A stretch of 64,000 nt of DNA from Cystobasidium ongulense (taxonomy: Eukaryota > Basidiomycota > Cystobasidiomycetes > Cystobasidiales > Cystobasidiaceae), in NCBI GenBank assembly GCA_022835595.1, contig BQUP01000001.1, positions 1,860,001 through 1,924,000 of the forward strand, given 5' to 3'. Of the stretch, positions 4,712 to 60,058 are shown one piece after another (positions within the stretch are counted from its first letter, which is position 1; every line of letters begins with the position of its first letter). The notes under the pieces are model-generated. The model was not told the DNA's origin and ran no database searches. It was given only the letters and a program-made list of their open reading frames with translations. The position numbers were made by a program, and so were the translations under genes.

Positions 4712-7700
4712 TTAAGAAACCCACATCTCGTAAACCCCCCAACCGAAAGACATATCCTTCTCGCTTCTAAGTCTCAAAAATCTCCAGCCTTTCCGACGCG
4801 ATCCACCTGCGCTCGTGCTCAAAGCAACCTCGCAATTCTCAAGCCTTGTCCTAGTTCTACCCCAACTTGATTTCGAGCGGCTCTGCAATTCACTTTGAAT
4901 AATTCGCTGAGCTGCTGATGATGTCAAGAAGGTTTTTGGGAAGGAAGGTTGAGGAAGTGTAGATAGGTGGCCGGTGATATGACAGGAGAACACGGGATTT
5001 GGAGAGAGCTCTCGCTGATCATCAATTGAATGTAAGCAAGTTTCTTGAATAGAGTATAGAAACCACGGCACTCACCCAGTTATAGCCGTCCATCGACACC
5101 TCAACCTTCAATTCCGATAGCACGGAAAACGAGTGTTCTAGAACGATGTGTATATTAATAGCACGTCTGCTTTCAACCTGTATATGGGTAAGAAGATCGA
5201 GCCCTATGTAATCGTTTTTGCGGATGACTAGTATAGCCGCGACAGGTCAGTACCGTCCAACCCAGTCTAGATAGCTGACCGGAGGACACTCACTGTCCGG
5301 GCTTCTCCAAGCTGTACGATAGTCGCCATCTACAGCACTGTAGAATCCCCACGCCAGAGCCCACTCTTTACCTTCCTTCCAGAGGTCTGGCGAATCTCCC
5401 AGTTCATGCTCCCATTGACTGATGTTACGAGCTGGATGAGGCTGGTAAATGACAGCATCGGGCGGTGGCAGATTAGCTACATTTGTCAAGAAGATACGGT
5501 CATGTTCTTGAGCTATTGATCGGGAGTGATGCCAGTATGTATGCGGCTTTTGTGATGCGGCTTGCATGCGGTATGGGTATATTGTTTGCGAGGTGTGCGA
5601 TACGTCCACCGGCCAAGGAGCTACTGGAGGCGGATATGGTGATAGGTTAGGCAATACTTGCAGAGATTTACTCAACCTATCCAGGCCTTTTTGCTGGACG
5701 AGGGTAAATACAGATTGCTTTAGCATTGGGGGGCAGGGTTGAACTATATTCCCGCTAACTTACGATATATATTTCATTTCGACGGTCGCCTGCTGTACCA
5801 TCACCGGCCGTGAAAGCCATTGGCTGAGGCATAGGCATCAACCCACTAGACAGCACATACGGCGCGGCATTTTGGAAAGTTGTGAAGCTGTTGTCGAGCA
5901 TAGCAAGCTCATCGGATGCCAGCGGTCCCAATACACGTGACGCGCCAGCTTCTAACGAAGGCTTGACCAGTGTAGCACTTTCAAGCGTTTGAAGAATTCG
6001 ACTACGCGAAACAAAAGCTCCGGTGCCCAGCCATGCGAAGCATGTATTCATGTCAAAGTCGGTGTCTAATATGAATGGAGTCAGATCCAGGCAGGGAGAC
6101 CCCCAAGAGACAGTTTGACTCACTGAAAAAGCACCACTCCCACCCTTCTTTCGTGGGGAGCTCGTCTCCTGTTATTACAACTGGCGGACCGTCTGGATTC
6201 CGCATAAAGTGCGAATGAGCTGCGGGCAGTGCTGGTACCAACCAGTCATCGTCTTGGAAGTAACACTGAATGGGTGGAAGAGTGTTAATGATGTCTGCTC
6301 TGTTCCATGTAGATAAGTTTCGAACCCACGTATGGTGTCTGAGCTAGTGAACAAGCCATGAATCTAGCCATGAAAAGTAGATTACCAGGAGAGTTGTGTA
6401 TCCGAAGCTTTCCTTTCGGACAACGACTAGACGCGAACTGCTCATGTGTCAAGAATATGTCGGGATTGTTGTTCCATACATGAACGCTATTGAATATAGT
6501 ATTGGTAAACGCGCATAGATGCGCAACGATAACAACCAGATTGTCTGTCCGCTTCCAGTTCAAGACTATCGCGGTAACCTTGGCGTCCGTCGAAGAAGGT
6601 ATGTCAGCGAGAACAGGCATTTTAGGACTTCCCACTGCCATTTTGTTCGATTCGGCCAGGGGAACGGATGGATGTAGTACGTCAATACCAGCTTGCAGCA
6701 GCGTTTCGAAAGGGTCTTTCGTATTGATCTTGAGGTGCATAGGATGTTGGTATGTTAGCCTGCGAGAAGATATCGAGCTTATTCTGGTAGACTCGTATAT
6801 GCCTAGCATTAAAAGTAGAATCAAGAGAACGAATGCTGTACGGCTGACTCCCAGAGCTCGTCTCATACGTCCAAATAAGCCCTTCACCCGATTTTGATGA
6901 CTTGGGCGCTTCCTTGGGGGGCGTTGCGTCGATTTCGTGACAGGAGAAAGTGCGCCTTGTCTATCTTCGTCCAGTAGGTCGATTGTATCGGAACTGTCGT
7001 GCTCGCCTCCTCCGGGATCGTGCCATGGTGAATCAGAGTCTACAGGATCTTCATACTCTACGAAAAGTAGTTCAGGCATGCGTCTGACTCTATCCCATAT
7101 TCGTGCTAAGTAATTCTCGCCTGCGAGAATTGGATTTGTACCAAAAGCCCTTCTATTCCAAAATGTACGACGAAGACCATCACGTTCCATATGCCTTAAC
7201 TGGTTGCGCACCGTACCAGCCCATCGTTCAGCGCGAGAGGGTGCATTTTCAGAACTTCCAGAAGCTGAAGCGCTTGTTGATATGCTATTTCTGGCGTTGA
7301 TGGCCCGGAGAGCTTTAGCGTGTGAATGGCTCTCGGAAGCGCGTCGATGAGGCGCCATTCCAAAATCTCGATGTGGGACATGTCCCAATACTGGCGAGGT
7401 AGTCGTAGACCTGGCTTTGCTGGCTGCTAACCATGACGGTAATGGCAGACCTAGACCTGGCGTACTAGGTTCAGGGTCTGGTTTGATGTTGACTGCTCGT
7501 GGCGCATAAATTCAGCTGCAATACTCAACACGACCGGGCAGAACGACGCACTATGTATCGAACGAGCTCTCCGTGGATTTGCTCTCGATCCTGGTAAGTG
7601 GACCCCCAGACTGGGCTCTTTTCTCCCTGATGCTCCTGCAGCTGGATCTTGCGAGCCTACAGATGCCAACGGCGCGAATGCTTGAGGAGGCGACGAGGTA

Positions 7701-7738
7701 CCCCGTTGCCTGGTCGGCGAGCTGTCCTGCGCACTCAT
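4712..7738 (-). CDS. Golgi-type type II membrane glycosyltransferase (DxD)
   Basis: Probable sugar-nucleotide-dependent glycosyltransferase of the secretory pathway; the acceptor is unknown. Exons: 7552-7738, 6330-7492, 6124-6265, 5764-6065, 5294-5693, 5076-5227, 4712-5014, about 882 residues. A long Ser/Pro/Arg-rich cytoplasmic segment precedes one membrane helix at about residues 281-296 (FVLLILLLMLGIYES). The catalytic part begins with TAIVLNWKRTDNL, like GT2/GT64 folds, and has an acidic metal site QDDDWLVP at about 454-461. WRFLRL and GVYEMWV close the C-terminus. The start is the first ATG of the open frame; exon 1 joins in phase after a 59-base intron. An alternative acceptor at 5718 would add eight residues to exon 5. 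The family is inferred from the DDD motif and topology, so the exact class is uncertain. Confidence 0.75.
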
Positions 7739-8030
7739 TCGACGTCGGGTCACACACTCATGGCGAGCGCATGGGACGAAAGAAAGCAGCAGAAGTGCAA
7801 ACCAATCTTTGCGACCTCGATCGCGAGCTAGCTTGTCAGACGGCACTGTGCAGACCGACAAGTCGGAATAGGATCTTTTCTCGAAAACAGGCGTATATTC
7901 AAGATACAAGAGTCATGCAAACGCATATACGAGTCGAAGTTAGCATCTTCACCGCTTTCGTGTTATTTCATACTTCAAATTGGCCGGCAGATCAGGCACG
8001 TGCACTACTCGTACAGTATTTGCCTAGCTA

Positions 8031-9435
8031 TCAATCATCTCCCTCTCGCGTCTCCGCTGCATCTACATCTACCGCCAGCGCAGCAGCATCTCTGAGTGCT
8101 TCGAGGGCATGGTACGCTTTGCCTTCTTTCAGTGTCTTGGTCGCCAACGCGAACGCTGCCTTCTCATCCTGAGCTTTGCCGCAAATAAGCAATAGAGCGG
8201 CAGCATTCATGCATACCCAGTCCTCAAGTGCCTGAGTGTCGAGCGTTCTCGTCGATCCACATGCTCCTTCCCTGTATGGTATATCGATAGCTTCGTTGTT
8301 CTTATTTCGTCTCGGTGATAGGAGGGAAGCGATGATCTTGGCGTGCACGCGATATTGAGCAGCAGGCGATTCAGCTGCATCTCCATTCGAGGGAAGCTGT
8401 ATTGATGCTAGAGGACGATCCTGTACACCAAACAGCGCTGGTGTTATTGTCCGCGTAGTGACCTGGCCGTCTTTCAAGTCCCACACTGTCGTCTCGCCTT
8501 CTGGACTGATTGCATCTAACCCATTCTTGCCATGTACTATCCACGCCCTTTTAGCTCCTAGCGTCTTCATTCCTTCCGCAAACACAGCACCTAGACGTTC
8601 TTCATGTACTCCAATAACGCAATAATCTCGTTTGGCTGGACTGACAAGGGAGGACAAGCTATGAAAGATGGTTTCGAAGCCGAGCTCGCGACGAAGTGGA
8701 TTGGGCGCGATGGCAGCGAAACGAGGAGCGTAGCGTGGTGTATAGATATGCAGGAATGGCACATGACGCGAAGAAGCGACTTTGATGAGGGAAAAGAGGG
8801 GAAGTGTATTCGTAGGAACAGATAAGGCGGTCAGAATGTCGCCTGATGAAGGCGTTGACGGCCAGGGTGAGGAAGCATTGCCCGTCTGGTAAGGTATCAG
8901 CCCTGAACACTATTCGAGTGTTGACATGACATACCTTGACGACTCTGCATCCTGCTCCTGCTGCAAGGATAGCCGCTGGTAATGCGACATTCAAGACCTA
9001 AGCATAGCGGAAGGCCAGTCGATCAGCTCCAAGCGATGTCAAGACTACCGTAATTGCAGATGGACTCACAGACAGTCTGCTTTCGCCGGTCAATGTCCAA
9101 TCGCAAATATGTCCCTCACCGCCAACTTTGATATTTCCGCTGAGCTCGGAGAATACCTGTACTTGGGTTTGTACCATGTCAGGTTTCCTCCACACATCCG
9201 ACACTCGTAAGGACGCGAGGAACGAGCCCATTTGAGCATGGCTGGCTGCTCCAGTGACGACGTGTATTAAAGCTTGACGCATCTCTTCAGGCGTGAAATC
9301 TTGTGGTTTTTGTAGGAGCTTGGATAGTAAAGGCTTGAAAGTATTGATGTTCATGCTTGATGCCTCAGAGGAGCTGCTTCCGTTCTGAGGCAAGCTTCCT
9401 GACCCGCTGGACGGCCCGTTCTGTGTTATGCTCAT
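8031..9435 (-). CDS. Degenerate TRP4 paralogue (anthranilate phosphoribosyltransferase-like pseudoenzyme)
   Basis: Exons 9070-9435, 8935-8997 and 8031-8885 give 427 residues that align along their whole length with the intact TRP4 gene next door (e.g. FTPEEMRQAL, QMGSFLASLR, VIGVHEERLG, LGAKRAWIVHG, GLDAISPEGE, VVKEEN-region VCMNAAALLLICGKAQDEK). The residues that bind phosphoribosyl pyrophosphate and anthranilate are gone: the glycine loop GTGGD reads LTGES (115-119), and the Lys-His-Gly-x-Arg segment reads KTGNAS (143-148). The frame is open, the splice sites are good and the fold-defining parts are kept, so it looks like a maintained protein without the normal catalysis rather than a decaying pseudogene. 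One intron sits at the same place and phase as in TRP4. A role as regulatory partner of TRP4 is inference. It is 54 residues longer than TRP4, mainly from a Ser-rich N-terminus and an insert before the last helix bundle. Confidence 0.85.
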
Positions 9436-9641
9436 TGTGGACGATATGCGTGTGTCTTGACGATAGAAGAGGTCGTGAACAAAGACAGACGCATCACTTT
9501 CCTCTACAAAGTGACTCCAACAAAACGTGATCGATGCTTTCCATGCAAAAAGCCAATTGCTTGCACGTTTGACACACACTACACAGAGCAAGACGTTGAG
9601 ACAGCAAAAGCGTAGCCAGAAAGGCACATTTATATCCAACA
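9436..9641. promoter_or_regulatory. Shared promoter of the TRP4 / TRP4-like pair
   Basis: Only 206 bases separate the two start codons, which point away from each other, so both genes must be driven from this stretch. TGACTC at 9512-9517 matches the core of the Gcn4/CPC1 binding site used in fungi for general amino-acid control, fitting a tryptophan-pathway gene. Binding has not been shown. Confidence 0.6.
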
Positions 9642-10963
9642 ATGCCGAAGAAACGCAGTCAAGACCTCACGAGCGAAAGCTTTGAAGGTCTATTGACACA
9701 TTTGGCCGACTCACCGGAGACGTACACACCAGAAGAGCTTTCAGATTCGTTGGACCACTTGTTCAATCCAGATTCATGTACAGAGTTTCAAATTGGAGCT
9801 TTCTTGGCTCTTCTGAGAGCTTCTGGCCTCGAAGGACGCCCTGATATGATTTCCATGGCTGCTCAAAGCATGCGTGAGAGAGCTGTCAGAGTTGAATTGG
9901 AACAAGATGGCTGGGCAGATCTGGTTGGAACTGGTGGAGATGGTAAAGACACTTTCAACGTCTCGACGACAGCGGCTTTGGTCGCAGCTGGTGCGGGCGT
10001 AAAGATATGCAAGGTGAGCTAGCGAGTCCTACATCCGTGGTGCACCTTTTTCTTCTTGAGAAGGCATATATGGGAATAACGACCAAATTTAAAAGCGCAG
10101 CAAGCCATAGAATGAATCACTGATGTTCTGTCTCTACTATCTGCTTGCTTTAGCACGGCGCTCGAGCTTCTTCATCAGCATCAGGTTCAGCGGATGTTCT
10201 TCTAGCTCTGGGTATCCCGATCACCTCTCTACCACTATCACGTATACCAGCAGTCGCATCTTCCCTTGAATACCCTTTCCTCTTCCTCTTTGCGCCTTTG
10301 TGTCATCCAGCAATGGGCCTAGTCGCTCCTGTTCGGCGGCAGCTGGGTCATCCTACCATTTTCAACATACTGGGACCGCTACTCAATCCTGCCAGACCAG
10401 ATTACATGATTGTTGGAGTACATTCAAGATACCTAGGCTTACCTTTCGCGGAAGCTTTGAAAAGACTGGGCGTCAAGAGAGCTTGGGTCGTCAATGGCGA
10501 CGAAGGGTTGGATGAAATCAGTCCAGAAGGAACGTCGCATGTGAGTTTGACCAAAGCTCAGACAGCCTTTGGCACAGGCTAAGTAAGGCGCACCCTCCAG
10601 ATATGGTCGTTAGAGAACGGTCAAATAACAGAAAGAGTAGTCTCGCCAGCTACTTTCGGACTACCCTCACATCCACTCTCAAGTGTAGCAGGTGGCAAGC
10701 CACACGAAAACGCACAATGCATATTAGACTTACTGCACGGGAAGTTAGATCCTGAAACGAATCCTATCGAAAACTTTGTCGTCCTAAACACAGCTGCCTT
10801 GCTTGTTGTAGCTGGAAAGGCGAAAGATGAAAAGGAGGGAGTCAAGATGGCAAGGGAGAGCATACGGAGTGGGAATGGTTTGAAAGCTCTCACTGGTTAT
10901 AGAGATGCGGCACAAAAGGCTATGAAAGAGGAAGAGGAGGATGACTCGAGGAATGACATGTAG
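9642..10963 (+). CDS. TRP4: Anthranilate phosphoribosyltransferase
   Basis: Second step of tryptophan synthesis: joins anthranilate to phosphoribosyl pyrophosphate to make phosphoribosyl anthranilate in the cytosol. Exons 9642-10013, 10154-10540 and 10601-10963 give 373 residues, normal for the family. Key motifs are intact: [14 protein letters not shown] at 96-109, [17 protein letters not shown] from 124, [19 protein letters not shown], and the C-terminal [18 protein letters not shown]. The catalytic chain therefore looks complete. It is head to head with the degenerate copy and shares its promoter. The first intron, after GVKICK, is at the same position and phase as the second intron of the degenerate copy. 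Confidence 0.96.
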
Positions 10964-11055
10964 GGAAAGCAATATATCCGAGTAGACAGAATTTGGCCGG
11001 CCCGGCGTCTTGTGCTGCAGGCCTCCTGGTATACCAATAATCTAGCACAATCAAT

Positions 11056-11430
11056 CTATTTCAAAGCAGAACGCCGTCCGCCATGACCACCTTGAGTGCC
11101 TCCAGTCATTACTGGCCTTGAATGAGAATCTCCCCGTCCATAGAAAGCGTTGCTACAGTTGACCCCGCCAACCAAAGCGTTTGCTTTCAAGCCGCTGTCT
11201 AACCGGGCCTTTGAGACCGGCGGGACACCTGCTGGAGGTCTGCCAGTCGAGCCTGCAGTCCTCAGTCCAGCCAAAATACGCTGCATCTTACCAGCATTTA
11301 GATTCGCCACCACTGCACCATGCTGAGAAAGAAAGCAAGCAGCAGGATTCGCCACATCCATCATGAAGCTTTCTGAAGATGGTCGTGGGAAGCAGTGGAC
11401 AGCTTGAGATAGCAGCGCACAGACATCATA
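11056..11430 (-). CDS. Possible small unknown protein
   Basis: An open frame of about 124 residues, from the ATG of MYDVCALLSQAVHCFPRP to AFYGRGDSHSRP and a Gly-rich end. It shows no family I recognise and no intron. It converges on TRP4 (93 bases apart) and diverges from ISU1 (187 bases). The frame is open for some codons upstream of the ATG but meets a stop before another ATG. It could be a real gene, the last exon of one with a missed 5' exon, or a chance frame. Confidence 0.3.
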   Translation of the reverse strand, partial: YDVCALLSQAVHCFPRPSSESFMMDVANPAACFLSQHGAVVANLNAGKMQRILAGLRTAGSTGRPPAGVPPVSKARLDSGLKANALVGGVNCSNAFYGRGDSHSRPVMTGGTQGGHGGRRSALK

Positions 11431-11617
11431 CATCGCCTGGCTATGCTGCCTTGTCCCTGCTGCACTTCCCACTCCATCCGGCGAGTTGGAGCGAGAATCT
11501 GATCTCGCAGCTCGTCAGTGGCCCGCCGAAGAGCTGACTCGCGTCTTCTCGCCTTTACTCCAACCAAGTGCAGGACATTATCTTGACTTTCCACAGCAAA
11601 CACTCAATCAACACATC

Positions 11618-12427
11618 ATGCAGGCAGTACGAGGCGCAACCTCCCTCCTCAGAGCTCCCCTGCTCGCCAGGCAGTCTCTCCTCAAGACTGGCCTCGCCGG
11701 ACAGAGCAGAGCCTACCACCAGAATGTCATTGGTGAGTGGCCATCGACGGAAAGCGAGAATGCAGATGGGCATATACTGATGCTGTATTTCCTTCAGAGC
11801 ACTTCAACAACCCACAGAACGTTAGTCTCGCCCGTCCACATTGTCTTGTCTTCCCTGCTTGGTCCCGACGGAGCGAGCGAGCGAGCGAGTTTCATGCATC
11901 TCACTGACATTTCATCATATCTAATCAGGTCGGAAGCTTCAACAAGAAGGATCTCGACGTAGGAACTGGTCTCGTTGGAGCACCAGCATGCGGCGATGTC
12001 ATGAAGTTGCAGATCAAAGTAGACGACAAGGGCATCATTTCCGATGTTCGATTCAAGACTTTCGGCTGCGGAAGTGCAATCGCTTCCTCTTCCTACATGA
12101 CTGAAAGAGTCAAAGGAATGTCACTAGAAGACGCCGGAAAGATTAAGAACACCGAGATCGCAAAGGAATTGTGCTTGCCTCCTGTCAAGCTGCATTGCTC
12201 TATGCTCGCGGAAGATGCTATCAAGGCCGCCATCAGAGATTATCAGACAAAGGTTCAAGGAAAGTCAAACATTGCTGGATCAATCGATGTCAGCCAGTCG
12301 GTGAGTGGATTCTGCTTTAATCATATGTATGTCTTGCACACCCTTGGCTCTTGCTAACGTTTCCATTCGCGTGATCCAGGTAACAACTGGACAAACGACC
12401 GCGACCGCCAAGCCAGGCCAGGTTTAA
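11618..12427 (+). CDS. ISU1: Mitochondrial iron-sulfur cluster scaffold
   Basis: IscU-type scaffold on which 2Fe-2S clusters are built in the mitochondrial matrix before chaperone-driven transfer. Exons 11618-11732, 11798-11820, 11929-12300 and 12380-12427 give 185 residues. An Arg/Ser/Ala-rich presequence ends near SRAYH. The three cluster cysteines are visible: C67 (GAPACGD), C93 (TFGCGSA) and C136 (KLHCSMLAEDA). The Hsp70-binding motif LPPVK is at 129-133. Exon 2 is only 23 bases. The short final exon encodes a Thr-rich tail (TTGQTTATAKPGQV). ISU1 starts a block of mitochondrial genes that includes COX15, BOL3 and the ABC1-family gene. Confidence 0.97.
11871..11889 (+). repeat. GAGC tetranucleotide microsatellite in ISU1 intron 2
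   Basis: Nearly five tandem GAGC units, in the intron between the second and third ISU1 exons. A simple repeat with no recognised function. Confidence 0.9.
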
Positions 12428-12847
12428 TTCAGCATTCCTATAGTCCTGTAGCCTCAATTATTACAACACGTCCGTCCCAGTCGTAAATGTACATTATCTG
12501 CCATATGTTGTGACTCTTCAAAGCTTTCGAGATGGTGAGACGAAATGAAAATTGCGAATAATGCCTTTCAGTTAACACGCAGGCCGGTCAATCAGGATAG
12601 CCGAACTTTACTGCTTCTTTCTTCAAGTGCACCAAAGGAAATCACATTGTCTGAAGAATGTATGCCATCCGAGCGCACAAAACTGCAGAATCACATTGCA
12701 AACCTAAGGGGAGTTTCACATCCAGACACTTCACTACCTTACAACCTAGTTTTCATTCCCCTTCGAAATCAAACCGTCTCTAATTCCTGCTAGCTGTATT
12801 CTCACTGTCATCAGCTTGTACGACTGCCCTGAATTCATATGACCTAC
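12428..12847. other. Intergenic between convergent ISU1 and a hypothetical gene
   Basis: About 420 bases of probable 3' flanking sequence. No gene or RNA was recognised. A plus-strand frame of about 80 codons exists but has no protein-like features. Confidence 0.4.
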
Positions 12848-13228
12848 CTAGCTGCCCCAAATCTTGACTGGCAATTTAAAGAAGCAGGCTTGTTTCTTGG
12901 CCAAATTTGAAAAACGTTGCATCTCATGAACGGGTTGGAACGCCGAAGCCCTCCTTCCGCGCCAGTCGAAAAGCCCCAACTCGTCTCCAGTCATGGCCAA
13001 TGCCTTGTAGTAGCTTAAACAAATCCCACTTTCATCGCATACGATAGCGAAGCCTTTTGGACATGATTCAGTTGGATCCCGAGGCTTGTATACCGCTTCA
13101 GATTGTACAATGAGATAATTTGCAAGTGGTTCGTTCGTCAACATCCCCAGGGCTGTTGCGATACGGCGGATTTGAGATACGCTAAACTTCATATCCAAGT
13201 TTCCACTCGCTCGCAAGGCATAAGTCAT
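12848..13228 (-). CDS. Hypothetical protein, 126 residues
   Basis: An uninterrupted frame with an ATG start and balanced, protein-like composition: MKFSVSQIRRIATALG, then GFAIVCDESGICLSYYKAL and LFDWRGRRASAFQPVHE, ending KLPVKIWGS. I do not recognise the family. A further 5' exon may exist between 13229 and the COX15 stop at 13382, but none is clear. The gene runs in the same direction as COX15 upstream and converges on ISU1. Confidence 0.45.
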   Translation of the reverse strand: MTYALRASGNLDMKFSVSQIRRIATALGMLTNEPLANYLIVQSEAVYKPRDPTESCPKGFAIVCDESGICLSYYKALAMTGDELGLFDWRGRRASAFQPVHEMQRFSNLAKKQACFFKLPVKIWGS

Positions 13229-13381
13229 AAGCCATAAGCCTCCGATCTTGCAATATTAGCCATTCGTGGCCGGAGAGCGACGATGCTGTTCTTTGCGAGA
13301 GGGGTGTACTGAATGCAATACTATGACAACAACAAATGAATTCCATTTCCAGTCCAAGTTCTAATGGCAACTGGCATAGAT

Positions 13382-15016
13382 TTAGAGCTTAGTTGTCTGC
13401 GACTGGGCTAGTACCGTAGCTGGCCGCACAGTATGGGATTGTGAAGGTGCAGCTTGGCTGATCATCTTGATGTATCGATGAGCGTTCTTGCTTGGTCTGC
13501 GAAGAGCGGCACCAGCGGCGACACATAAACTGAGGAGGACTAGACTTCCAGCTTGATGCGCGGCTGCTAGAGGGATCGGTACGAGGTATACGAGTGTTGA
13601 AATACCGAGTGCGACTTGAATGATGGCCATATGCATTGTACCTTTGATAGCTCGAAGAGCATTCGCAGGTATGTGCATAGCTACACTAGGTCTCCGGACG
13701 TAGAGGAACAAAGCAACGATAGCGGTGAAAGTGGTTGTTGCTAGTGCTCGATGATCAAATTGGACCGTTGTTGGGTTCTCGAGGGAATTGCGAATGTAGA
13801 GATCGGATTGATCTGGTGAGCGAGAATACTTGGGTGAATAGAGCTCGGAAGCAGGTGGAACGATGCGGTCGCCCATGTATGGGAAGGTATTGTAGAGTAG
13901 ACCAGCGTCTAGGCCGGCGACGAAGGCGCCTGATGAGAATATTATGTTAGGATGCAATGATGTCTGAACGTTATCATTCTACTGCCTACCTGAGATGGCT
14001 GTGACAAAGATAAGACCCGTCAAGCCAGTTACTAACACTCGTACCCTGGTAGCCTGCGGCGTGTTAAGCAATGTCAAACTTTGCTGGACCGATGCGACTT
14101 TTCCTCCGATAGCCTTTCCAAGCTTTGCCAGGTTCCAATCTCTTCTGACGCCAAGAGCATGTCGTAATGAAAGAGAGTATACCAAGAAGGCCATTCCTAG
14201 ATGAGCAGCTAATCGATATTGCGATACTCGAGGGACACCATCTCTAGCTTGGATAGCTTCATGCGTGAGACCCGATTTCACCATGTACCAACCCAAAGCA
14301 CCTTGTCCGCCGATAAGCGTAGCGATAGTGAATAGCATAGCTGCAGAGCGTTTTGATAGCTTTCGCTTGTACAGGTAGTATGGAATGGGTGCCAAGAATG
14401 CGATTCCAATGATCCGACCTAGGAAGCGATGTCCCCATTCCCAACCATAGATTCTTTTAAAGTCTTCCAATGACATTCCTTTATTCATGAGCTGTCCCTC
14501 GGGTGTAACCATGTACTTGTTGTATTCCGATAGCCAATCTTCGTGTGACAGTGGCGGCAGCGTTCCAGTTACGAGATTCCATTCTGTGATGCTTAAGCCC
14601 GACTCGGTTAGACGAGTGAGGCCTCCGACAACGACTATCGAAAACACCAGCCCGGCTATCACGAAGAGGTGTGTTGATACTGCTGGAGCTGTGAGACGTG
14701 GTAATTGTTCGGAAGAGCTGGCTCCGGGTCCGCTTGTAGAATCAGTGGCGATAGGTTCGGCAGTAGTAGCTACTGAAGAGGGAGAGGATCGGTGAAGCGA
14801 GCGGAATGCCGTCGTTTGTAGACGTGGAGGCTGGGGTGTTCGAAGTGGATTCAGACCGAGAAGTGCTGAAAGCTGCCGCGATGGTGAAGGACGCGATGCA
14901 GTTTGATGGAGTGATCTTGCCAGAAATCTTGCACTTGGAGATGGCAGTGCCTTCAGCGAGACGCAAGGACCAGCGCCCAGCAAGCGAGTCGCAAAGACCC
15001 GCGATGTAGAGGCCAT
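13382..15016 (-). CDS. COX15: Heme A synthase
   Basis: Mitochondrial inner-membrane enzyme that oxidises heme O to heme A for cytochrome c oxidase. Exons 13990-15016 and 13382-13929 give 524 residues. A long Ser/Arg/Leu presequence precedes the catalytic core, which carries several hydrophobic helices and the family motifs GGLTRLTESGLSITEW, YGWEWGHRFLGR (heme-ligand His), LAAHLGMAF, AGLDAGLLYNTFPYMG and VQFDHRALATTT (second conserved His). The C-terminal half repeats the four-helix bundle pattern. It is head to head with BOL3; the start codons are 166 bases apart. Confidence 0.96.
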
Positions 15017-58366: not shown

Positions 58367-58576
58367 TGTTGGATGAGAGAGCGTGTACTCGCTATCTAAT
58401 CCTACTAAACTGCTTGTTGTGTGTGTTTTCGCAGCTTGTTCAAGAGCAAAGCCGTCGTTCTCGCCACCGAGGCAGCTTTTTCCATTTCGACTGTGAAATT
58501 TCCGAGATTTGTACAATTCTTGCAAAAGTGAATACACTTCAGATTATCGACAACCATCCTGCATCTATCAATCAAC

Positions 58577-60058
58577 ATGTCCAAACAGGCAAAGGGCAAA
58601 GGCAAAGCTGCGACAGTGCGCATTGCCGACTTTGAGAACGTCGAAGACTTTGTGCAGCCGGGCAAGGTGGCAGCCGTCAAGAAGCAGCAGCCAGCGCCGG
58701 TAGAGGTGGTGGAAGCAGCAGGCGAGGAGGAGCTGGCTGAAGGGTCGTCGCAGACTGCAGATGATGATGATGATGATGATGATGATGAGGATCTAGAAAG
58801 CGACGAGGACGAAGAGTACGAGGTCGACGAAAAAGCCATGAACAGGCTGCTCGAACTGCTGGGCGATGTAGACGCATCTGAATTGGGACTCGACTTCAAC
58901 GAGGAGGACGAGGAAGAGTCGGATGAGGATGGAGAGGACGATGATGAGGAAGAAGTGTCGGGAGACGAGGACGACGACGACCAAGTCAGCGGCTCAGACG
59001 GGTCCGACGAAGACGACGATGAAGAACTCGACGAAGACGAACAGCCGTCGAGACAGTCAATGAAGCAGCAGGAGCTGGCTGCAAAGAAGCAACAGGATGT
59101 AAGTCGCTTATACAGACCATGTGTGACATACAATCTGAACAACCCATCTGCAGATTGTCCTCGAGCGCATACTTGACCGCTTCAAAATCAATGTACCATT
59201 CTTCGAAAATCAAACGCTCACGTGCCCGGAACCTCTGGAAATTACCGATGTATCCGATGATCTTAGTCGAGAGCTGCAATTGTGCGTTCACACATGTGCT
59301 TCCAGAGAGACTTTTTTGCTAACAATAATCCTCTATCCAGCTACAAACTCTCATTATGGGCCGCACGTGAAGCAAGCAAGCTATTCAAAGCAGCAGGTCT
59401 GCCCTATGAACGACCAAATGACTACTACGCAGAGATGCTCAAGTCAGACGAGCACATGGAGAGAATCAGACAAAAGTTGTTAGATGACTCGGCCAACATC
59501 AAGGCTTCCGAACAAGCCAAAAAGCAGCGTCACTTGAAAAAGTTCGGAAAGCAAGTACAGGTCGAAAAGCAAAAGGAGCGTGAGAAGTCAAAGAGAGAGA
59601 TGAATGATAAAGTCAAGTCTTTCAGGAAGAGTGAGTTGTACCATTTCTGGTCTCCTTTTCATTTCCTCTTTGCACGACTCGTATGCTAATACTGCGACTC
59701 TCGTGCGCTTTCAGAACGCAAAGCTGGCGATGATGGCGCTGAACCAGCCGAGTTTGATATCGGCGTTCTAGACAAGGACGATTCAAGACCTACCAAGAAA
59801 GCACGTGGAGGTGGAAATGTACGCGGTAAAACCAGATCGCAACGGGAGACCAAATTCGGTCACTCTACTAGTTCACGCAGACCAAAAGAGAATGATCGTG
59901 AATCTACCAACTCTTTCGGTGGACGTGGTGGTGGTAGAGGCGGTAGAGGAGGAAGAGGAAGAGGAGGGTCCTCGTCTGGAATGTCCAGAGGTGGAGGTGC
60001 GGGCAGAGGTGGCGGCGCTTCCAAGCAGAGAAGACCTGGCAAGAGCAAGAGACAGTAA
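58577..60058 (+). CDS. EBP2: rRNA processing protein EBP2
   Basis: Nucleolar factor needed for 27S pre-rRNA processing and 60S subunit assembly. Exons: 58577-59098, 59154-59281, 59341-59630, 59715-60058, giving 427 residues. A long Asp/Glu-rich N-terminal half is followed by the conserved EBP2 core: FKINVPFFENQTLTCPEPL, RELQFYKLSLWAAREA, YYAEMLKSDEHMERIRQKL and KKFGKQVQVEKQKEREKSK. The tail is an RGG-type Gly/Arg stretch (GGRGGGRGGRGGRGRGG), usual for nucleolar RNA binding. Diverges from the LLPH-like gene. Confidence 0.96.

Follow-up and report, generated by a model that had tools for sequence, protein, structure and literature searches.

What role might be left to a protein that descends from a biosynthetic enzyme, appears to have lost most of the active site, and is encoded head to head with an intact copy of the same enzyme? 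This question is raised by a locus of the basidiomycete Cystobasidium ongulense, in which two genes of the anthranilate phosphoribosyltransferase (AnPRT, TRP4/TrpD) family are transcribed away from each other (Table 1). The locus lies within a window of 64,000 nucleotides, the whole stretch of DNA analysed (assembly GCA_022835595.1, contig BQUP01000001.1, positions 1,860,001 to 1,924,000); coordinates below are those of the window, and the two genes are called the plus and the minus copy after their strands. The initial annotation had described both genes with correct coordinates, strands and motifs, including the replacement of GTGGD by LTGES and of KHGAR by KTGNA in the minus copy and the 206 bp between the two ATG codons. 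Its assignment of both divergent genes to the AnPRT family was borne out, in that the spliced proteins aligned with 36% identity over 378 columns (BLASTP, E 7e-76), far above chance, and each carried a helical and an alpha/beta domain, the Pfam families Glycos_trans_3N and Glycos_transf_3 both scoring above the gathering thresholds (37 and 120.8 bits, respectively, in the minus protein). All four introns of the pair are of the GT..AG type and 49-140 bp in length. Intron 1 of the plus copy and intron 2 of the minus copy are both in phase 0 and both come directly after one and the same lysine of the alignment, a common position of the kind that a duplicate should show, and each gene has one further, private intron. 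Relative to the plus protein, the minus protein carries a 7-residue insert at about 307-313, a 24-residue insert at about 336-359 and two inserts of 2 residues, and its first 27 residues are of low complexity.

The condition of the two active sites was assessed with residue roles taken from PMC9835598, in the numbering of the Mycobacterium tuberculosis enzyme. Seventeen ligand-contact positions were taken, and G147 was dropped as its column is variable, leaving 16. Of the 80 comparison loci, 79 prokaryotic enzymes were used in residue counts; the loci had been fetched by a GTGGD or TIFNxLGP motif, so that motif frequencies among them are biased upward. The plus protein retained 15 of the 16 residues, the exception being an Ala at Asn138 (Gly in yeast), whilst yeast Trp4 retained 13 and the prokaryotic enzymes 14-16 (median 16). 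Its motif reads KHGAR, the fourth position of which is Asn in 78 of the 79 prokaryotic enzymes. The plus protein also scored 331.1 bits against the trpD equivalog model TIGR01245, passing the cut-off of 199.05, and all 25 sequences of the PDB that it matched at E 0.001 were named AnPRT. By these sequence measures, the plus gene is a working TRP4.

The minus protein retained only eight of the 16 residues, namely the equivalents of T108, G109, N117, K135, N138, S143, R193 and D251, having lost G107, G110, D111, S119, T120, R139, S142 and E252. The GTGGD phosphate loop, to which G107, G110 and D111 belong, is thus absent, with LTGES in its place. S119 and E252 are ligands of the magnesium ion MG1 (PMC9835598); their positions are occupied by Ala127 and Ala268 in the minus protein, which has therefore lost both protein ligands of the catalytic magnesium, with D251 kept as Asp267. 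The anthranilate-binding arginine of helix a8 is present as Arg208, the equivalent of R193. Over all 87 columns with a conservation of at least 85%, 44 were kept, as against 73 in the plus protein, and the score against TIGR01245, a model built for prokaryotic annotation, fell below the cut-off at 170.2 bits. The three active-site loops were identical between the copies at 7 of 33 positions, compared with 134 of 337 elsewhere (p 0.039, uncorrected for the three tests made). Taken together, the sequence indicates that the minus copy very probably no longer catalyses the AnPRT reaction, and the earlier claim that most of the site is gone agrees with the count of eight ligand residues against 15 in the plus copy. 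As a separate observation, Asn146 of the minus protein (8877-8879, minus strand) stands at the KHGN position, where it agrees with the 78 prokaryotic enzymes rather than with the Ala of the plus protein or the Gly of yeast.

Several lines of evidence indicate that the minus copy has been kept as a protein. At fourfold-degenerate third positions of residues common to both copies, 15 of 61 were identical, which is the chance level, so the copies are old. Identity at codon positions 1, 2 and 3 was 50, 63 and 30%, with a pN (proportion of nonsynonymous differences) of 0.43 and a saturated pS (its synonymous counterpart) of 0.82, averages which span the branches of both copies together. The Nei-Gojobori method (NG86) returned a nonsynonymous distance (dN) of 0.66 and no value for the synonymous distance (dS), and maximum likelihood gave a dN of 0.73 and a dS of 15.5. 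Nevertheless, at this distance the minus frame runs through 427 codons without a stop or frameshift. When the plus sequence was drifted neutrally, by substitutions only and without indels, at least two stops had arisen by 39% identity in 500 of 500 simulations, and at least one by 62% identity in 499 of 500.

Structural models were built from single exons. Exon 3 of the minus copy (284 aa) was modelled with a predicted local distance difference test score (pLDDT) of 84.4 and a predicted template modelling score (pTM) of 0.84, and a fold search with it found 105 PDB matches at E 0.001 or better, and every one of the 50 listed was an AnPRT chain (TM-score normalized by the query, 0.57-0.68). Exon 1 gave a pLDDT of 79.3 and a pTM of 0.63, with a block of pLDDT 90-97 at residues 31-100 and weakly modelled ends, LTGES included; a fold search with this exon alone yielded nothing that reached E 0.001, its top rows being unrelated proteins. 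From the computed homology, broken site, saturated synonymous divergence, open frame and predicted fold, the minus protein is very probably a pseudoenzyme kept as a folded protein, and we hold with considerable confidence that its gene is an old, non-catalytic paralogue that arose by inverted duplication and has been retained. That the copy is not decaying, as had been proposed, is upheld by the open frame, the 63% identity at second codon positions, the stops in every run of the deeper drift simulation and the exon models.

The origin of the pair was examined in trees of the plus, minus and yeast Trp4 proteins with 40 prokaryotic rows, yeast being the one outside fungus and represented by part of its sequence only. 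The three fungal proteins formed a single clade (support 100/99), within which the plus and minus copies were paired (98/80, or 99/89 under a mixture model) on branches of 0.37 and 1.16, respectively. Of 11 columns that are diagnostic of fungi, the minus protein shows the fungal state in 4, as against a maximum of 3 in any of the 79 prokaryotes. The approximately unbiased (AU) test rejected neither a grouping of plus with yeast (p 0.154) nor one of minus with yeast (p 0.225), and long-branch warnings were issued by the program for yeast and, under the mixture model, for the minus copy too, both being marked as odd in composition; the duplication could therefore predate the split from the Ascomycota, and its dating from these trees is weak. 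Of the proposed ancient inverted duplication, the duplication of a fungal-type TRP4 (the clade and the common intron position) and its age (the saturated synonymous sites) both stand, the AU test being compatible with a date before or after the yeast split. The notion that TRP4 is single-copy in fungi draws its support from papers, on Cryptococcus, with one TRP4 listed per strain, and on Psilocybe mexicana, for which one trpD is named (PMC11046786). Amongst viral contigs, 5 and 13 pattern matches were obtained for the two proteins, none of them related.

How might such a protein be employed? Known AnPRT structures are homodimers formed through helices a1, a3 and a8, in which the active sites make no direct contact (PMC9835598), and a minus protein without catalysis could hence pair with Trp4. 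As the minus copy keeps the predicted helical domain and the arginines of helix a8, such pairing is plausible, and it would use the same dimer face (a1, a3, a8). A minus subunit might make Trp4 more stable, raise or lower its activity, or direct its location, in the manner in which prozyme acts on S-adenosylmethionine decarboxylase (AdoMetDC) in trypanosomes. The head-to-head arrangement over a common spacer would ease joint expression and permits co-regulation. No perfect Gcn4-type site (TGASTCA) was found in the 206-bp spacer; it does contain one TGACTC at 9512 (0.12 expected) and three one-mismatch matches to the Gcn4-type TGACTCA, at 9512, 9570 and 9597 (0.52 expected), at least three such matches being present in 121 (4%) of 3000 segments of that length drawn at random from the window. 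With about a dozen motifs examined, this is a weak hint of Gcn4-type control and not evidence for it.

The likeliest mechanism is a partnership with Trp4 by way of the dimer helices, which is put forward as a testable proposal and not as a result. As a whole explanation, a pseudoenzyme beside a working TRP4 that acts as a protein partner of Trp4 is one we favour tentatively, at somewhat less than even confidence, and a role as partner or regulator directed at Trp4 in particular may be put a shade more cautiously still. A fuller version, in which a Trp4/pseudo-Trp4 heterodimer made from the divergent pair runs the second tryptophan step and the dead subunit controls the live one, perhaps through anthranilate bound at the retained Arg and Asn, would seem rather doubtful.

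Several points weigh against this reading. Half of the ligand residues survive, K135, R193 and D251 among them, and ligand positions were not preferentially lost (8 of 16 kept, compared with 36 of 71 other conserved columns), which suggests that active-site residues now receive no special protection. The change at S119 corresponds to yeast S121A; cells with trp4-S121A still grow in the absence of tryptophan, and the allele has no dominant effect (PMC12750150), so it is the joint loss of residues, and not the S119 change by itself, that makes catalysis doubtful. Alignments of AnPRTs underlie the fold models, whose likeness to AnPRT is consequently not independent proof. The AnPRT of Sulfolobus solfataricus dimerises for stability, with no direct part of the dimer in catalysis (PMC9835598), and if dimerisation matters for stability a partner need not regulate. 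Finally, between the two copies, conservation of the interface helices did not significantly exceed that of the remainder (18 of 37 identical against 123 of 333, p 0.21; p 0.086 for a3 and a8 alone), the helix limits in this test having been read off the alignment and not off coordinates; by sequence, interface conservation neither supports nor excludes pairing.

Amongst the alternatives to a partner of Trp4, the one that survives best, albeit unlikely, is that the minus copy encodes a non-catalytic protein of AnPRT fold that has been kept for a job unrelated to Trp4, for instance nucleic-acid or chromatin binding. Bacterial TrpD2/YbiB, which binds DNA and the GTPase ObgE, shows that an AnPRT fold can lose PRPP (phosphoribosyl pyrophosphate) binding and take on a new role (PMC9835598; PMC10123104). 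The helical domain and C-terminal helices predicted to be retained in the minus protein would suit such a role, whereas the charge summed over the whole protein shows no excess, being about zero (K+R 41, D+E 42, isoelectric point 6.8); TrpD2 proteins have a positively charged groove for nucleic acids. The protein is also closest to the trpD model (170 bits), well ahead of PRK07394 (48) and PRK09071 (39), which we take to be TrpD2-like models, and its gene adjoins TRP4. Membership of the minus protein in the TrpD2/YbiB family itself was considered and rejected, given its 36% identity to the neighbour and its best score with the trpD model.

It is improbable that the minus copy retains enzymatic activity, be it on another substrate, with a different use of metal or as a slow AnPRT. 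The eight retained equivalents and the yeast Ser121Ala enzyme, which works in vivo despite no clear PRPP density in its crystal (PMC12750150), would allow for it; the simultaneous loss of the other eight residues, including both S119 and E252, and the score beneath the trpD cut-off argue the contrary. More improbable again is a sink or sensor that binds anthranilate without turnover. R208 would hold the carboxylate, an Asn occupies the N138 position that is Ala in the plus protein and Gly in yeast, and R209 sits at the position of R194 in the outer site of the M. tuberculosis enzyme; yet PRPP binding has probably been lost, the HPAM of the plus protein is APRF in the minus protein, and G107 is replaced by Leu, though the backbone contact could survive. 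A decaying copy without function, with which the fast branch and the equal loss of ligand and other conserved positions would agree, is very improbable in view of the unbroken 427 codons at saturated synonymous distance, the canonical introns and the predicted foldable product.

Table 1. Features of the divergent TRP4 pair (window coordinates).
Feature	Position	Strand	Remarks
TRP4-like paralogue gene	9435-8031	-	3 exons, 427 aa
TRP4-like exon 1	9070..9435	-	low-complexity N-terminus, helical domain, LTGESRLS
TRP4-like intron 1	8998..9069	-	without counterpart in plus gene
TRP4-like exon 2	8935..8997	-	VLNVALPAAILAAGAGCRVVK
TRP4-like intron 2	8886..8934	-	phase 0, splits K143/T144 of KTGNA; position = plus intron 1
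TRP4-like exon 3 incl. stop	8031..8885	-	altered PRPP loop, RRELG, GLDAIS, two inserts, C-terminal helices
Spacer between start codons	9436..9641	.	206 bp, genes point away from each other
TRP4 (AnPRT) gene	9642-10963	+	3 exons, 373 aa
TRP4 exon 1	9642..10013	+	helical domain, GTGGDG loop, NVST, ends ..KICK
TRP4 intron 1	10014..10153	+	phase 0, splits K124/H125 of KHGAR; position = minus intron 2
TRP4 exon 2	10154..10540	+
TRP4 intron 2	10541..10600	+	without counterpart in minus gene
TRP4 exon 3 incl. stop	10601..10963	+

The window is eukaryotic DNA of 50% G+C with short GT..AG introns and housekeeping genes. On one side of the pair lies a 408-aa open frame (6285-7511, minus strand) with an apparent membrane-spanning stretch and a glycosyltransferase-like TAIVLNWKR, with no Pfam match at 1e-5, and beyond it on the other side is an IscU/ISU-type iron-sulphur scaffold (NifU_N; 12001-12357, plus strand). 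No tryptophan-pathway families were found amongst the 20 other frames of the window that were scanned, 10 of which had a Pfam match at 1e-5, short exons being excluded. Two long frames overlap at 58405-59181 (minus strand), encoding an acidic Asp/Glu-rich protein, and 58532-59176 (plus strand), a Ser-rich antisense reading that is probably a mere shadow of the acidic frame. No tRNA or Rfam matches were detected in the 64-kb window, and no tandem repeats at 5000-14000.

Compared with yeast Trp4 (7DSJ) and other AnPRTs, which are type III phosphoribosyltransferases, the minus protein has both domains and the predicted fold. It also has the Pro and the Trp found in the fungal stretch SPxGxxx[IV]W, as well as the Arg that is conserved in helix a8, and its identity to the plus copy is 36-41%. 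It differs from these enzymes in lacking GTGGD and the equivalents of Ser119, Thr120, Arg139 and Glu252, and in adding the inserts and an N-terminal extension. TrpD2/YbiB likewise has an AnPRT fold without AnPRT function and has lost the PRPP motif (PMC9835598; PMC10123104); however, it is prokaryotic and less than 20% identical to AnPRT, whereas the minus protein shares 36% identity with the fungal protein encoded next to it, is about neutral in overall charge, and matched 25 PDB sequences at E 0.001 that were all named AnPRT, none TrpD2 or YbiB. Within the tryptophan pathway, the TSB-like protein of eudicots is a dead paralogue of tryptophan synthase beta that binds and activates its partner subunit (PMC12727527). 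That case concerns another enzyme and kingdom, two key residues changed as against a whole site, and a hetero-complex that existed beforehand. A TrpC-TrpF fusion of an alga-derived amoeba has also been called a pseudoenzyme by its authors (PMC11528492). No report of such an active/dead AnPRT pair in fungi was found among the top-ranked results of literature searches that mostly do not extend to subscription papers.

A further parallel is the trypanosome AdoMetDC prozyme, a duplicate that lost catalysis and activates AdoMetDC about 1000-fold (PMC5201418), deoxyhypusine synthase reportedly being another such case (PMC3663545). By calculation, the minus protein is likewise a dead paralogue of an enzyme of the same genome that selection has kept, though activation is proven for prozyme and only proposed here. 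On these calculations, the C. ongulense locus contains an AnPRT pseudoenzyme that has been maintained next to an active twin; it belongs to a known kind, the dead paralogues, and differs from TrpD2, the known non-catalytic relatives. A dead copy kept beside a live AnPRT provides a natural experiment on why the enzyme dimerises, and AnPRT could become one more of the few metabolic enzymes that are under the control of a catalytically dead paralogue.
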